Of a DNA stretch of 64,000 nucleotides, positions 2-20,961 are shown one piece after another (the first letter of the stretch is position 1; each line of letters starts with the position of its first letter). The notes below the pieces were generated by a model. It was not told the origin of the DNA. It saw only the letters and a list, made by a program, of their open reading frames with translations, and ran no database searches. The DNA comes from Sphingomonas phyllosphaerae FA2. GTDB taxonomy: Bacteria > Pseudomonadota > Alphaproteobacteria > Sphingomonadales > Sphingomonadaceae. The position numbers and the translations under genes were made by a program. The DNA lies in the NCBI RefSeq assembly GCF_000427645.1, contig NZ_KE386571.1:1415676-1479675 (forward strand), in the 5' to 3' direction.

Positions 2-1930
2 GTCATCAGTTCGGAGGCCGGTAAGCACGGCGACATCTGGTCGTGGAGCCCCGCCGACGGCAAGATCGCCTATCGCATGTCGATGTCGCTGCGCGGCTGG
101 CTCACCGAGACCGACGAGGTGATCACGAGCGGCCCCGATCGCCGTCCGACGGCCATCGCAATCCGCGGCTTCACCGACTCAGGCGATGCCACCGAGAATT
201 TCAGCGTCGCGCGCGATGGCATCGCGACGTGGAAGACCAGCGTCGATGCCGGCTCCGCGCCCTATGCCGCGCGGCGCTACAGCACTTATGGCGGGCCGCC
301 GCTGGCGAACGAACAGGATGTGGCGGCACTGGTCGCGGCGGGGACGAAGGGCGTCGACCTGCTGCCCGGCGGCCATGCGACGCTGACGATGGGTGACGTC
401 ACCGAGATCGACGGGCCGCAGGGCAAGACGCCGGTGCGGCTGGCATTCATCCGCGGCTATGGCTTCTCACCCTCGCCGTTGTGGCTCGACAAGGACAACC
501 GGCTGTTCGGCTATGCCGGGGTCATCTCGATGCTGCCCGAAGGCTATGAGGCAGCCGGACCAAAGCTGAAAGAGGTGCAGGACAAGGCGACCGCCGCGAT
601 GGTCCGCGACGTGGCGCGCACCTTCCTGACGCCCGCCAATCGCACGCCGACGCTGGTCGACCATGTGCTGCTGTTCGATTCGGTGAAGGGCACGTACCTG
701 CCCGATCGCGCGGTGCTGATCGCCGACGGCAAGGTCACGGCGGTCGGAGCGGGCGGCTCGCTGCGCGCGCCTGCGGGCGCGACGACGCTGGACGGGCGCG
801 GCAAGACGTTGGTGCCGGGGCTGTGGGACGCGCACCAGCATGTCGGCGACGACTGGTCGCTGCTCCAGAACATCGCGACGGGCATGACGAATTACCGCAG
901 CCCGGGCTCGCTGATCGAGGATGCGCACAGCATCGTGCAGCGGCGCGCGGCGGGCGACCTGCTGGCGCCGGACGGGCGCGTATCGGTGATCATCGACCGC
1001 AAGGACCCGCTCGCCGCGCAGGGTGCGCTGACTGTCTCGTCGGCGGAGGAAGCGGTCGCGGCCGTGCGCAAGATCAAGGCCGCCGGCATGTGGGGGGTCA
1101 AGTTCTACACGTCGATGACCCCGGCGTGGATCGCACCTGCCGCGGCGGAGGCGCATCGGCTGGGCCTGCACGTCCACGGGCACGTCCCGGCGGGGATGCG
1201 GCCGCTGGATGCGGTGCGCGCGGGCTATGACGAGGTCACGCACATCAACTTCATCATGATGCAGGCGATGCCGCAGGCGGTGGTCGACAAGGCCAACACC
1301 GCCGCGCGGCCGGAAGGCCCGGCGCGTTATGGCAAGGACGTCGATCTCGATAGCGCGGCGATGCGGGCGTTCTACGCCGAACTGGCAAAGCGCAAGACGG
1401 TGATCGACCCGACCTTGACCGTTTGGGAGCCGTTGATGATCAGCGACGGCACCGCGATTCCGCCTGAATATGCTGCCTTCGCCAAGGTCGCGCCGCCAGC
1501 GGTGGCGCGCGGCTGGCGGATCGCGGGCTATCCGTTGAAAGACGGGCTGACCCGCGAGGATTACCGCAAGAGCTTCGGCAAGATGGTCGAACTGGTCGGG
1601 CGGCTGCACAAGGCGGGCGTGCCGATCGTCGCAGGCACCGATGGCTGGGGCGTCGAACTGGTCCGCGAACTGAAATTGTACCGGCAGGCCGGGCTGAGCA
1701 ATGCGCAGGCATTGCAGACCGCGACGATCGTACCGGCGAAGATGGTCGGGATGGGTGACCGGCTCGGCTCGGTCGCGGCCGGGAAGACCGCGGACGTCAT
1801 TCTGGTCGACGGCGACGTATCGCAGGACATCGGCAACCTGCGGCATGTGCGGACGGTGTTTCTGGATGGCTATCGGCTGGACGGGGATGCGCTGCGGAGT
1901 GCGAGCGGGATGAGCGGAATGCCGGAGTGA
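2..1930 (+). CDS. Amidohydrolase family metal-dependent hydrolase (5' end outside window)
   Basis: The reading frame is open from the first bases, so the gene starts upstream and this is its C-terminal ~640 residues. The first ~200 visible residues form a domain of unknown role. From about 'LVDHVLLFDSVKG' an amidohydrolase-type beta-sandwich and TIM barrel follow. Metal-site signatures are visible: 'DAHQHVGDDW' after the first strand, 'GVKFYTS' in the region of the bridging lysine, 'HVHGHVP', and 'GTDGWG' with the late aspartate. This superfamily hydrolyses C-N or other bonds with one or two bound metals, often on peptides or cyclic amides. The substrate cannot be read from sequence. The gene ends just before an inverted repeat. 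Confidence 0.85.
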   Translation, partial: VISSEAGKHGDIWSWSPADGKIAYRMSMSLRGWLTETDEVITSGPDRRPTAIAIRGFTDSGDATENFSVARDGIATWKTSVDAGSAPYAARRYSTYGGPPLANEQDVAALVAAGTKGVDLLPGGHATLTMGDVTEIDGPQGKTPVRLAFIRGYGFSPSPLWLDKDNRLFGYAGVISMLPEGYEAAGPKLKEVQDKATAAMVRDVARTFLTPANRTPTLVDHVLLFDSVKGTYLPDRAVLIADGKVTAVGAGGSLRAPAGATTLDGRGKTLVPGLWDAHQHVGDDWSLLQNIATGMTNYRSPGSLIEDAHSIVQRRAAGDLLAPDGRVSVIIDRKDPLAAQGALTVSSAEEAVAAVRKIKAAGMWGVKFYTSMTPAWIAPAAAEAHRLGLHVHGHVPAGMRPLDAVRAGYDEVTHINFIMMQAMPQAVVDKANTAARPEGPARYGKDVDLDSAAMRAFYAELAKRKTVIDPTLTVWEPLMISDGTAIPPEYAAFAKVAPPAVARGWRIAGYPLKDGLTREDYRKSFGKMVELVGRLHKAGVPIVAGTDGWGVELVRELKLYRQAGLSNAQALQTATIVPAKMVGMGDRLGSVAAGKTADVILVDGDVSQDIGNLRHVRTVFLDGYRLDGDALRSASGMSGMPE

Positions 1931-16811: not shown

Positions 16812-17438
16812 TCAAACGGTGGGCTTCGTCTCTTGCGGATGGTGCGGCGTCAGGATCAGCGTGCGTCCCTCGACGCGCCAGCTCTTCAGCCGCGACAGGA
16901 AGTTCATTCCCAGCACGTCGACGTCGCCGAACGCGGGCGAGACGACCACCGCCAGATCGCGCGCGACGACATTGCCGAAGCGCAGTTCGGGCACTTCGCC
17001 GGTGTCGGCGCGGATCGTGCCGTTGGCGGTCTTGAGCAGCACCGGAAAGACGGCGGGCTTCACCTCGACCCCGGCGGCCGCGGCAGTGGCCGGGGACAGC
17101 GCGGTGATCGTCGCGCCGCTGTCGACCAGCAGCCGGTGCTGCGTCCCGCCGATCGTCGCGCGGACGTAGAAATGGCCGTCGCGGCTCATGCGAATGCGGG
17201 TTTCCTCGCCCGCGACCTTCTGTTCGTCGAGATCGAGCGCCGCCGCCGCGCGGCCGAGCCACGGGTCGAAGCGGCCGCGCTCGGCGATCGTCGCGTAGAG
17301 CAACAGTCCCGCACCGACCCATAGCGCGAGGCTGACCAGCGTCCGCAGGATCGGGATGCGTCGCGCCACCAGCGCCGCGACGAACAGCGCGCCGAGCAGC
17401 AGGTAGAAATGCGGGTTGGCCGAAATCCAGGCGGGCAT
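16812..17438 (-). CDS. Membrane-anchored retropepsin-like aspartic protease (clan AA, TIGR02281 type)
   Basis: 208 residues. Two N-terminal hydrophobic segments (about 10-26 and 34-50) anchor the protein. The C-terminal ~120 residues are a retropepsin fold with the catalytic 'LLVDSGATITAL' (D106-S-G-A) and the closing 'DVDVLGMNFLSRLKSWRVEG'. A single active-site motif means it must dimerise, as retroviral proteases do. Related alphaproteobacterial proteins (for example Rickettsia and rhizobial homologues) are inner-membrane proteases of unknown substrate with the catalytic domain in the periplasm. It is divergent from the thrS leader. Confidence 0.88.
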   Translation of the reverse strand: MPAWISANPHFYLLLGALFVAALVARRIPILRTLVSLALWVGAGLLLYATIAERGRFDPWLGRAAAALDLDEQKVAGEETRIRMSRDGHFYVRATIGGTQHRLLVDSGATITALSPATAAAAGVEVKPAVFPVLLKTANGTIRADTGEVPELRFGNVVARDLAVVVSPAFGDVDVLGMNFLSRLKSWRVEGRTLILTPHHPQETKPTV

Positions 17439-17515
17439 GACGACGATATAGGGACGGCAAGCTTGCTGGAGAATGGCTGGCGCGGGCGCGGGCGGTGCGC
17501 TATGTCGATCGCGTG

Positions 17516-17581
17516 ATGACGATGCCCACTACCACCACGACCCGGCCATGTCCGGGGGCCGGCGCCCGCGTCATCGGCTGA
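17516..17581 (+). CDS. Threonine-rich leader peptide of thrS
   Basis: A 21-codon ORF upstream of thr[22 protein letters not shown]-stop. Codons 5-9 (17528-17542) are five consecutive threonine codons, and six of 21 codons are Thr. There is no Shine-Dalgarno sequence, but a TATGTC hexamer at 17501-17506 would, if it is the -10 element, start the RNA within about 3 nt of the ATG, giving leaderless translation. The position, length and codon content fit a ribosome-stalling sensor of charged tRNA-Thr. See the attenuator that follows. That it is translated is inference. Confidence 0.62.
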
Positions 17582-17660
17582 CGTACGGCACCGCCCGCCC
17601 GGACCGGGTGGAGGCGGTGCGGCGGCTTTCCATCCTGACGATCACCCACGCCGCTCTTTT
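17552..17660 (+). promoter_or_regulatory. Putative ribosome-mediated transcription attenuator of thrS
   Basis: Four mutually exclusive segments follow the Thr codons. Segment 1 (17552-17556 'ccggg') can pair with 17598-17602. Segment 2 (17588-17595 'gcaccgcc') pairs perfectly with segment 3 (17613-17620 'ggcggtgc'). Segment 3's end (17622-17626 'gcggc') pairs with segment 4 (17650-17654 'gccgc'), followed by TCTTTT. Stalling at Thr codons would cover segment 1, favour 2:3 and allow read-through. Translation to the stop at 17579-17581 would mask segment 2 and favour 3:4 termination. The terminator stem is short (5 bp), so folding needs testing. Confidence 0.5.
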
Positions 17661-17717
17661 CGTCGGGGCACGGCATCGCTAGGCCGTTGTCACGACTTTG
17701 TGCAGGAAGACCCTTCG

Positions 17718-19709
17718 ATGGAAATGCTCTCGATCACGCTGCCCGACGGTTCGGTCCGCGAGGTCGCGTCCGGCACCACCCCCGCCGACATCGCCGCCGC
17801 GATCGGGCCGGGGCTCGCCAAGGCGGCGATCGCGGCGCGCGTGGATGGCGAGTTGCGCGACCTCTCGCGCCCGCTGACGCAGGATGCGCGGCTGGCGCTG
17901 GTGACGCAGAAGGACGAGGTGGACGCGCTGGAACTGGCGCGGCACGACTTCGCGCACGTCATGGCCGAGGCGGTGCAGCACCTGTTCCCCGGCACGCAGA
18001 TCACTTTCGGCCCGGCGACCGACGATGGCTTCTACTACGACTTCGCGCCCAAGGACCGCCCGTTCACCGACGAGGACCTGCCCGCGATCGAAGCCGAGAT
18101 GCGCCGCATCATCGCCAAGAACGAGCCGTTCACGCGGGAGGTCTGGTCGCGCGAGCAGTTGATCGAGACGTGGCAGCGGCAGGGCGAGACGTTCAAGGCC
18201 GAATGGGCCGCCGAACTGCCCGACGGTGAGGAGCTGACGATCTATCGCCAAGGCGCGTGGCTAGACATGTGCCGCGGGCCGCACATGCCCTCGACCGGGC
18301 GGCTCGATTCCAATGCCTTCAAGCTGACGCGCGTATCGGGCGCCTATTGGCGCGGCGACCAGAAGAACGCGATGCTCAGCCGCGTCTATGGTACCGGCTG
18401 GCTCAACAAGAAGCAGCTCGACGCGCATCTGACGATGCTGGAGGAAGCCGCCAAGCGCGACCATCGCAAGATCGGCGCGGAGATGGATCTGTTCCACCTC
18501 CAGTCCGAAGCGCAGGGCTCGGTCTTCTGGCATCCCAAGGGCTATATCCTGTGGCGGCAGATGGAGGCGTATATGCGCCGCCGGCTCGACGCCGCCGATT
18601 ATGCCGAGGTCAAGACCCCGCAGCTGATGGACGCGCGGCAGTGGGAACAGTCGGGCCACTGGGGCAAGTATCGCGAGAACATGTTCGTCGTTCCCGACGA
18701 AATCCCGAATACCGAGGACGAGGGCGCGGTCATCTCGGGCGATGCCGATATGATGGCGCTGAAGCCGATGAATTGCCCGGCGCACGTCTTGATCTTCAAG
18801 CAGGGGATCAAATCGTATCGCGACCTGCCGATCCGCATGGCCGAGTTCGGCTGCTGCCACCGCAACGAGCCGCATGGTGCGCTGCACGGGATCATGCGCG
18901 TCCGCCAGTTCACGCAGGACGACGCGCATATCTTCGTGCGCGAGGACCAGCTGGTCGAGGAAGTGCGCAAGTTCTGCGAATTGCTCCACTCGGTCTATCA
19001 GGATCTGGGCTTTACCGATTATGCGGTGAAGCTGGCGCTGCGGCCCGAGAAGCGCTTCGGCTCGGATGAGATGTGGGACCGCTCCGAGCAGGAATTGCGC
19101 GACGCGGTGCAGGCGTCGAATCTGCCGCAGGAGATCAAGGACAAGTTCGAGGAGCTGCCCGGCGAAGGCGCCTTCTATGCGCCGAAGCTGGAATTCCATT
19201 TGACCGACGCGATCGGGCGGACGTGGCAGGTCGGGACGATCCAGTCCGACCGCGTGCTGCCCGACCGGCTCGACGCGAGCTATGTCGGCGAGGACGGCAA
19301 TCGCCATCGCCCGGTGATGCTGCACCGCGCGATCCTGGGCACGTTCGAGCGCTTCATCGGTATCCTGATCGAGCATCACGCCGGGCGCTTCCCGCTGTGG
19401 CTCTCGCCCGTGCAGGCGGTGGTGGCGACGATCGTCTCCGACGCCGACGATTATGCGCATGAGGTCGCGGCGAAGCTGCGCGCGGCGGGCATCCGGGTCG
19501 AGACTGACCTGCGCAACGAGAAGATCAACTACAAGGTGCGCGAGCATTCGGTCGCCAAGGTGCCGAACCTGCTGGTGGTCGGCAAGCGCGAGGCCGAGGA
19601 AGGCAAGGTCGCGCTGCGCCGGCTGGGCAGCCAGGCGCAGACCTTCCTGACGCTGGGCGAAGCGGTGCAGATGCTGCGCGACGAGGCCCGCGCGCCGGAC
19701 ATGCGCTGA
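17718..19709 (+). CDS. thrS: Threonyl-tRNA synthetase
   Basis: 663 residues. The domains in order are TGS (1-~60), the editing domain with '[11 protein letters not shown]' (~75) and 'DMCRGPHMP' (~184), the class II catalytic core (motif 1 around '[14 protein letters not shown]', motif 2 '[19 protein letters not shown]', motif 3 '[18 protein letters not shown]') and the C-terminal anticodon-binding domain. The zinc-site cysteine is in 'KPMNCPAH' (~350). It charges tRNA-Thr with threonine and hydrolyses Ser-tRNA-Thr. An AGGAAGA site lies 7 nt before the ATG at 17718; an in-frame GTG six codons upstream is less likely. Expression is probably controlled by the leader upstream. Confidence 0.97.
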
Positions 19710-20290: not shown

Positions 20291-20319
20291 TTCCAAAACG
20301 CGAACGGATGCCCTATATT
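20291..20319 (+). promoter_or_regulatory. infC: Possible infC promoter
   Basis: TATATT at 20314-20319 is a good -10 candidate; TTCCAA at 20291-20296 is a weak -35 at 17-bp spacing. It would give a leader of about 25 nt before the infC start and place the type E repeat upstream of the transcript. Confidence 0.35.
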
Positions 20320-20349
20320 GAGGGGGTAATCACCACAGGAGCAATACCC

Positions 20350-20895
20350 ATACGTCCTCCCATGATGCGCCGGCCAAACCAGGCGCCGCCGATGAACGGC
20401 CCGCGGTTCAATGAGTGGATCCAGAGCCCCAAGGTCCGCGTGATCGATCACGAGGGAGAGAACCTTGGCGTGATGTACACGCGCGAGGCGATGGAGCAGG
20501 CGCGCGAGGTCGGGCTCGACCTGGTCGAAGTGTCGCCCAACGCCGATCCGCCCGTCGCGAAGTTCCTGGACGTCGGCAAGTTCAAGTACGAGGCGCAGAA
20601 GAAGGCGAACCTCGCCCGCAAGTCGCAGAAGACGCAGGAGATCAAGGAGATCAAAATGCGTCCGAACATCGACGACCACGATTACGACACCAAGATGAAG
20701 AAGGTCGCCGAGTTCATCGAGGAAGGCGACAAGGTGAAGGTCACGATGCGGTTCCGCGGTCGCGAGCTGAGCCACGGCCAGCTCGGCATGAACGTGCTGC
20801 AGCGAGTCGCCGAGCAGGTGCAGGAAATTGCCAAGGTGGAAGCCTATCCGCGCATGGAAGGCCGCCAGATGCTGATGGTGCTCGCGCCCAAGTAA
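20350..20895 (+). CDS. infC: Translation initiation factor IF-3
   Basis: About 181 residues. The N domain ('[25 protein letters not shown]'), the helical lysine-rich linker and the C domain ending '[18 protein letters not shown]' are all canonical. IF-3 binds the 30S subunit, checks start codons and prevents 70S association. An AGGAG at 20337-20341 is spaced 8 nt from an ATA at 20350-20352; the first plausible in-frame ATG (20362) is 20 nt from that site. I therefore propose an AUA start, consistent with known IF-3 autocontrol at non-AUG starts (AUU in E. coli). Downstream rpmI-rplT, usual neighbours, are absent here. Confidence 0.93.
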
Positions 20896-20926
20896 CCGCG
20901 CCGGATTATCCAGCCTGCCGTAACGT

Positions 20927-20961
20927 CCGCCGCGCGTGATCCGCGCGGCGGCGTTGTATTT
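20927..20961 (+). terminator. Rho-independent terminator of infC
   Basis: A perfect 10-bp GC stem, 'ccgccgcgcg' 20927-20936 with 'cgcgcggcgg' 20942-20951 and loop tgatc, is followed by 'cgttgtatttgt'. It lies about 30 bp after the infC stop codon. Confidence 0.75.

Follow-up and report, generated by a model that had tools for sequence, protein, structure and literature searches.

The region analysed lies within a 64,000 nucleotide stretch of the Sphingomonas phyllosphaerae FA2 genome, hereafter the window, on which all coordinates are given. Its thrS gene (17718-19709, plus strand) encodes a threonyl-tRNA synthetase with TGS, tRNA_SAD, class II core and anticodon-binding domains, and the start codon, ATG at 17718, is preceded by CAGGAAG (17703-17709). 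Upstream, on the same strand, is a 21-codon ORF (17516-17581) whose translation contains five consecutive threonines, encoded by ACT ACC ACC ACG ACC (17528-17542), with third positions that vary among relatives. This leader ORF, thrL, starts either with ATG at 17516 or with GTG at 17513 (total extent 17513-17581). The GTG is placed 6 nt past a -10-like hexamer, TATGTC (17501-17506, plus strand), whose spacing to the start is kept in relatives; the corresponding -35, TGGCGC (17478-17483, plus strand, 17 nt spacing), is weak in the window. A divergent gene for a retropepsin-like aspartyl protease (PF13975; 16812-17438, minus strand) lies about 77 bases from the leader ORF.

A first-pass annotation of this DNA, made from the letters alone, had pointed to the ORF with its five threonine codons, to the nearby -10-like hexamer and to a hairpin with TCTTTT, and all were found at the places given, the hairpin being formed by 17619-17624 with 17649-17654. 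It had also drawn alternative pairings between the ORF and thrS. These competing folds are supported, but the drawing had to be corrected to a six-segment relay with two anti-terminator pairings, all on the plus strand. Segment 1 (17534-17547), made of threonine codons and the following bases, pairs with segment 2 (CCGGGGGCCGG, 17552-17562; placed by coevolution and alignment), the family register of this stem 1:2 not being favoured in the window's own fold. The leader stop codon (17579-17581) comes 12 nt ahead of segment 3 (17591-17602), which pairs either with segment 2, as an anti-terminator, or, by 17595-17600, with segment 4a. The latter (17606-17612) pairs with segment 3 by 17606-17611, or with segment 5 (TCCATCC, 17629-17635), the register of which was taken from the sequence and from the family pairing 4a:5. 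Segment 5 is itself located in the loop of a terminator-like hairpin, whose arms, 4b (GCGGCG, 17619-17624) and 6 (CGCCGC, 17649-17654), were assigned by their coevolution and which is followed by the tail TCTTTTCG (17655-17662), a position that is U-poor in most relatives. The family consensus reads CCGGGGGCGG for segment 2, then the stop codon, CCGCCGCCC for segment 3, GGTTTCGGGCGG for 4a, GGCGTC for 4b, CCTCCCGAAACC for 5 and GACGCC for 6.

Taken alone, the window sequence is unremarkable. The raw fold of 17513-17700 barely beats shuffled sequences (z -1.46, 19 of 200 shuffles equally good), and a mechanical consensus scan of 17200-18000 returned no terminator and no promoter. Neither the Rfam Thr_leader model (RF00506) nor the T-box model matched the window at the gathering score, three other Rfam matches only being obtained, none of them at the leader. 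The case thus rests on the relatives, and a dismissal based on the single-sequence fold and the consensus scan alone would have been wrong. Elsewhere in the window, tandem glycine riboswitch aptamers (RF00504; 31322-31530, minus strand, 61.1 and 45 bits) and a bacterial RNase P class A RNA (RF00010; 56523-56916, minus strand) were recorded.

Of 149 genomes drawn from the family, 148 yielded a thrS gene. Upstream regions from 130 of these genomes, together with 80 named genome contigs, gave 205 that were unique and long enough. Using a strict rule, by which a short ORF between -270 and -100 had to contain four or more Thr within six codons, 39 of 163 unique thrS upstreams were positive, compared to a mean of 0.0 over five dinucleotide shuffles of the set. 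Applied to the same 163 upstreams, the rule gave 0 on the opposite strand and 0 on a control stretch at -570 to -400; no other amino acid exceeded its shuffled count by more than Arg did (12 versus 6.4). With a looser rule the leader was present in 61 of the 205 unique upstreams, that is 46 of 129 rows of the family draw plus 15 among the named contigs, and in 0 of 24 non-sphingomonad rows. These 61 are what remained of 68 threonine-run matches after 7 (L049, L052, L140, L157, L163, L181 and L205) were discarded by eye as unlike the family. They are a lower bound, since the 300-nt rule overlooked one genome, G059, whose leader is 570 nt away from thrS. At this locus (L251) a 168-codon ORF, exonuclease-like by eye (629..123, minus strand), lies between attenuator and thrS, and the attenuator is directly ahead of another gene's start codon; its 4b and 6 arms have changed together and its tail is without U.

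Named carriers include Sphingomonas sp. 8AM and Ag1, Blastomonas, Croceicoccus, Erythrobacter, Porphyrobacter, Altererythrobacter, Allopontixanthobacter and Novosphingobium. Under the looser rule the leader is absent from 144 of the 205 upstreams (24 of them non-sphingomonad), many close relatives included; it was not found in the Sphingobium and Sphingopyxis sampled, nor in many of the Sphingomonas. On a ThrS tree (quick method, 116 rows, most non-sphingomonad rows left out), the leader is clustered, with 8 changes against a shuffled mean of 38, and patchy within Sphingomonas; as 30 of the loci in the tree were chosen for carrying the element, the tree bears on clustering and not on frequency. 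The pattern fits an old element that would have been lost several times, transfer being also possible.

At least four consecutive threonines are present in 51 of the 61 leaders. The last four codons of the run hardly vary at their first two positions and do vary at the third (over all leaders, ACC 231, ACG 91, ACT 89 and ACA 23), so that the amino acid is what is kept. The next six conserved codons behave differently, the third position being the tightest in five of them. Past the run it is therefore mainly the RNA that appears to be kept, although GC-richness of a genome by itself restricts the choice at third positions. A functional peptide, to which the conserved C-terminus (RGR-VA) might have pointed, was considered and judged less likely than an RNA effect on the same count of five codons in six.

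The first-pass annotation had suggested that the leader would be leaderless, and the promoter spacing agrees with this. An in-frame ATG or GTG is found 6-8 nt past a -10-like hexamer (TANNNN agreeing with TATAAT at three or more of its six positions) in 58 of the 61 leaders, versus 7.8 after shuffling of the upstream letters; in a further set of 44 loci (alignment A3, described below) this holds for 43. A -35 that agrees at four or more of six positions, at a spacing of 16-18 nt, accompanies it in 48 of the 61 leaders and 38 of the 44 loci, counts that are given without a null. This spacing predicts a leaderless mRNA for the leader, with a transcript that would begin at or beside the leader start codon rather than downstream of the ORF.

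Pairing was analysed first on all 61 leaders, the segments being cut by the columns of one alignment and each scored with its own partner or with mismatched partners. On average, own partners fitted better for every stem, with z of -3.8 for 1:2, -5.3 for 2:3, -5.1 for 3:4a, -12.3 for 4a:5 and -8.0 for 4b:6, and for each of the five stems 0 of 2000 permutations were as good. The own partner beat the median of the others in 36, 38, 41, 50 and 48 of the 61 sequences, respectively. Six control pairings in the same 61 sequences, which share the same relatedness, showed no coevolution (z -1.8 to +2.1).

The seed alignment A1 holds 42 of the 61 leaders, 6 near-copies having been removed and then 13 irregular or gappy leaders (L003, L077, L078, L083, L089, L101, L138, L173, L184, L188, L189, L197 and L199); a smaller one, A2, holds 35 of these 42 rows. 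On A1 the covariation score was above that of all 500 shuffles. When partners were slid by 1-3 columns, on A1 and likewise on the alignment A3 described next, paired cells dropped from 85-91% to at most 66%; some of the slid controls on A1 had as many or more pairs changed on both sides, with far fewer paired cells. Alignment A3 has 44 rows outside A1, namely 26 later-fetched loci and 18 of 30 loci found by the covariance model R1 (of the others, 10 were from genomes already examined and 2 were near-copies); one row (L226) is more than 90% like an A1 row, and two (L252 and L255) are probably from the same genomes as L138 and L137, which belong to the 61 and not to A1. On these 44 rows, covariation was 0.168 versus 0.090 shuffled for the ON pairs, which the model does not use, and 0.218 versus 0.128 shuffled for the OFF pairs, a result that leans to OFF because A3 was aligned to the OFF structure; in both cases 0 of 500 shuffles did as well. 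Of the stems, 1:2 is conserved least (in 79.1% of cells on A1, and in 63.6 and 75.0% for its outer parts on A3), and stem 4b:6 is kept in 93.8% of cells on A1 and in 98.8% on A3, which was fitted to 4b:6. The annotation had held the short terminator stem to be the weakest part of the case. This proved misplaced: the stem is well kept and covaries, and it is the U tail that is weak.

The proposal of a threonine-leader attenuator for thrS is thus supported, and the check that went with it, namely conservation of the threonine run and of covarying stems in relatives, came out in its favour. That the ORF would be a chance threonine-rich frame in GC-rich DNA with accidental stems, as a window fold that barely beats shuffles and the mechanical scan without terminator could suggest, we regard as next to impossible, given that conservation, coevolution and spacing are all far above controls, also in sequences outside the seed.

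The spread of the element was followed with covariance models. R1 gave one match each in 67 of 246 genomes of the order, a lower bound since its filters were strict. All matches that were fetched are located upstream of thrS (30 of 30 and 26 of 26), and the other 11 are loci already examined. In 289 genomes of the class, R1 found three members of the family and one weak match (genome G607, locus L243, E 0.062). This last one was rejected as due to chance: two long ORFs that overlap each other (656 and 482 aa) enclose it, and in 3.1 kb no match to ThrS was better than E 0.21. A second model, R2, was built without the window's lineage and found the window at E 2.2e-5, as well as five other genomes of the same genus at 2.2e-6 or better. 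The nearest relative of the window (L091) reached only 0.0043; R2 was poor on L101 (0.29), L034 (0.48) and L173 (0.48) and missed L003, four loci for which R1 gave 0.036, 0.003, 0.058 and 0.54, respectively.

We propose that thrS is controlled by ribosome-mediated attenuation that responds to charged tRNA-Thr through the six-segment relay, a reading to which we give a probability of roughly 0.84. The leader and its competing folds would probably turn thrS up when charged threonine tRNA is short. Support for this is a conserved ORF, codons cognate to the regulated gene, a promoter spacing of the leaderless type, five coevolving stems and the association with thrS; from it we infer ribosome stalling, transcription termination as output and an effect on the level of thrS. 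A transcript that begins at the start codon of a leader of about 20 codons would let a ribosome start at once. If charged tRNA-Thr is present, the ribosome would reach the stop codon, cover segment 2 and halt about 12 nt before segment 3; 3:4a would then pair, 4b:6 would form the terminator-like hairpin, and transcription would mostly end. If charged tRNA-Thr is short, the ribosome would stall on the threonine run and cover segment 1, so that 2:3 pairs. This would free 4a, which could pair with 5 before segment 6 is made; 4a:5 would hold 4b in a loop and hinder 4b:6, and thrS would be transcribed. The stop codon is suitably placed in most of the family: its distance to segment 3 is 10-17 nt in 57 of the 61 leaders, where a ribosome, judged by its usual footprint size, would mask segment 2 and spare segment 3.

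The relay was also followed by folding only the RNA past the ribosome edge and averaging the expected pairs over the 61 leaders. Between a stall in the middle of the run and a ribosome at the stop codon, 2:3 falls from 8.23 pairs to 0, 3:4a rises from 1.26 to 5.81 and 4b:6 from 3.8 to 6.2, the last being higher at the stop in 52 of 61 leaders and shifted the wrong way by more than 1 pair in 4. The place of the stall matters. At the first threonine codon, 2:3 is at 7.37 and 4b:6 at 4.84, above its value in untranslated RNA (4.16); at the last one, 3:4a (4.91) forms instead of 2:3 (3.41). Untranslated RNA is a mixture (1:2 5.35, 2:3 4.86, 3:4a 3.44, 4b:6 4.16), and so shows no clear OFF state in the absence of translation. 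Before arm 6 exists, 4a:5 is at 7.78 in the stall versus 4.88 at the stop; the stall gives the higher value in 42 of 61 leaders and does not in 19, of which 11 are lower there by more than 1 pair. For the window, 4b:6 goes from 6.6 pairs mid-stall to 9.5 at the stop and is at 0.0 in untranslated RNA, where the simple model expects OFF, and 4a:5 before arm 6 from 6.8 in the stall to 2.4 at the stop. The calculation gives a switch that is sharp in its upstream half and less so at its final step, the change in 4b:6 being modest at equilibrium.

The output step deserves separate consideration. A terminator check gave a GC stem that is well kept and a U run that is weak in most members: the longest T run in the tail after 4b:6 is 2 in 38 of 61 leaders, 3 in 13 and 4-6 in 10. 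Loop lengths were counted on 42 rows: L1 measures 5-7 nt in 37 of them, L2 3-5 nt in 36 and L3 12-15 nt in 35. With such loops 4a:5 and 4b:6 could form together, in a pseudoknot whose geometry would fit the H type. At L251, compensated 4b:6 arms and a tail without U are kept right before another gene's start codon. The relay could then act with an output other than an intrinsic terminator, 4b:6 working through Rho, through pausing or as a pseudoknot with 4a:5. We take this to be a serious possibility, if the lesser one, because 4b:6 is well kept and ends a few nt ahead of a mostly conserved CTT, and because a TTTT run is found in six of the eight Sphingomonas-type members, window included (our grouping: L001, L003, L034, L091, L101, L126, L143 and L173). 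Terminator-like sites with a U run are themselves not clearly above chance in 60 kb of the window (9, 13 and 15 observed versus 9.5, 9.8 and 10.3 expected), which suggests that a U-poor tail is a weaker objection to termination in this genome.

Beyond what the first annotation had described, a possible second promoter or separate element was noticed between the attenuator and thrS. In the window it is a putative proximal promoter, P2 (17657-17685, plus strand), with TTTTCG and TAGGCC (17680-17685) separated by 17 nt; it lies where the relatives have a conserved inverted repeat, at about -75 to -35 of thrS, with a TTGTGCCATGGCGCG-like core. The two arms of the repeat (7:8) coevolve (z -6.3), and TGCCATGG is found in 30 of the 61 upstreams with a leader and in 8 of the 144 without. 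This conserved repeat may be a second promoter, an operator or both. With a U-poor tail, an overlapping repeat and a possible pseudoknot, termination is an output that we infer.

If P2 were the main source of thrS expression, the leader transcript would be minor or vestigial. The -35/-10-like pair with its 17 nt spacing, which overlaps the tail, would be in line with this, as would the promoter-like sequences seen by eye near thrS, at about the same place, in some genomes that lack the leader, and the persistence of TGCCATGG without leader in the 8 upstreams just mentioned. We nevertheless find it unlikely, since five coevolving stems and threonine codons kept across genera indicate present selection on the leader, and P2 matches the consensus poorly, by eye, in leader genomes. 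The coevolving arms of the repeat and its core in leader-lacking upstreams could alternatively be read as an operator to which ThrRS would bind to repress its own translation, the threonine leader being secondary. Such an operator is known in E. coli, where ThrRS binds the mRNA at an anticodon-like loop near the ribosome-binding site. Here the loop keeps no threonine anticodon (TTGTGCC, TTCTGCC and others, by eye) and the repeat leaves the ribosome-binding site uncovered in the sequences inspected by eye, which makes this reading very improbable.

Attenuation of thrS through the threonine leader, our preferred reading, was compared to known systems. Among the matches listed in the open-licence literature, no leader attenuator of a proteobacterial thrS was found described in the portions available, which do not comprise Vitreschak et al. 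2004, reportedly the classic survey of proteobacterial attenuators; no sphingomonad leader attenuator was found described among them either. The enterobacterial thrL attenuator of thrABC (RF00506) relies on threonine control codons and ribosome stalling, and its leader has its own ribosome-binding site; the sphingomonad element shares codons and stall logic with it, whereas thrL serves a biosynthesis operon. The attenuator of the his operon has six segments, A-F, forming three stems when OFF and two when ON. The relay resembles it in these numbers and differs in that 4b and 5 are distinct, so that in the ON state 4b would be kept from the terminator by sitting inside the loop of the stem, not by being paired in it. 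In enterics, the pheST leader is likewise an attenuator of an aminoacyl-tRNA synthetase gene, with Phe codons; the likeness is one of description only.

Closest is the thrL-thrS pair of Streptomyces lividans TK24, for which a leaderless leader peptide of 18 residues with two threonines has been proposed and for which, in the excerpt available, the authors report one hairpin and no uridine-rich sequence (PMC8079986). The annotation's statement that no sphingomonad case was described thus stands among the matches listed, but a threonine leader of thrS as such had already been put forward (PMC8079986, same excerpt). Both have a leader of predicted leaderless type ahead of thrS, and most sphingomonad tails are likewise U-poor. 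In that excerpt, the S. lividans leader is proposed for one strain, with no covariation seen, and has two threonines, whereas the sphingomonad leaders belong to many genera of another phylum, have five coevolving stems and mostly carry runs of at least four threonines. In excerpts on another alphaproteobacterium, Sinorhizobium meliloti, the 5' end of the rnTrpL RNA is the AUG of its leader ORF, and roles in trans are reported for the RNA and its peptide, peTrpL (PMC7298713, PMC10117765). The start is of the same type as that predicted here from promoter spacing, but rnTrpL concerns Trp and trpE. As for feedback on thrS itself, T-boxes precede the gene in Bacillota, according to the part of PMC12452182 available, and E. 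coli ThrRS is named self-regulating in an excerpt of PMC2965389, which also mentions a histidine leader predicted for hisS paralogues in bacilli. Both controls of thrS differ from the leader: a T-box RNA binds uncharged tRNA, and in the E. coli operator ThrRS binds the mRNA.

Leader attenuators of synthetase genes were already known, and the novelty here, among the matches listed, lies in a thrS attenuator of Sphingomonadales that is conserved, covaries and has a start of predicted leaderless type. A large bacterial group thereby gains a well-supported family of regulatory RNAs. The element points to another possible means of tuning thrS in bacteria, next to T-boxes and to binding by ThrRS, and would be a clean example of a sensor based on the translation of a leaderless mRNA. 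A more elaborate version, which as a whole we find doubtful, would be a new sphingomonad RNA family combining the leaderless threonine leader with a U-poor hairpin or 4a:5/4b:6 pseudoknot that needs a factor (Rho, NusA/NusG), a separate repeat before thrS and a short RNA that might act in trans like rnTrpL. Direct tests would be easiest on the Erythrobacter-Novosphingobium members, whose threonine runs are long and whose alternative stems are nearly perfect, with related lineages that lack the leader as natural controls. Downstream of thrS lies infC (IF-3 domains, in the region 20308-20951), so the attenuator might affect infC too; a GC hairpin follows infC at 20927-20951.
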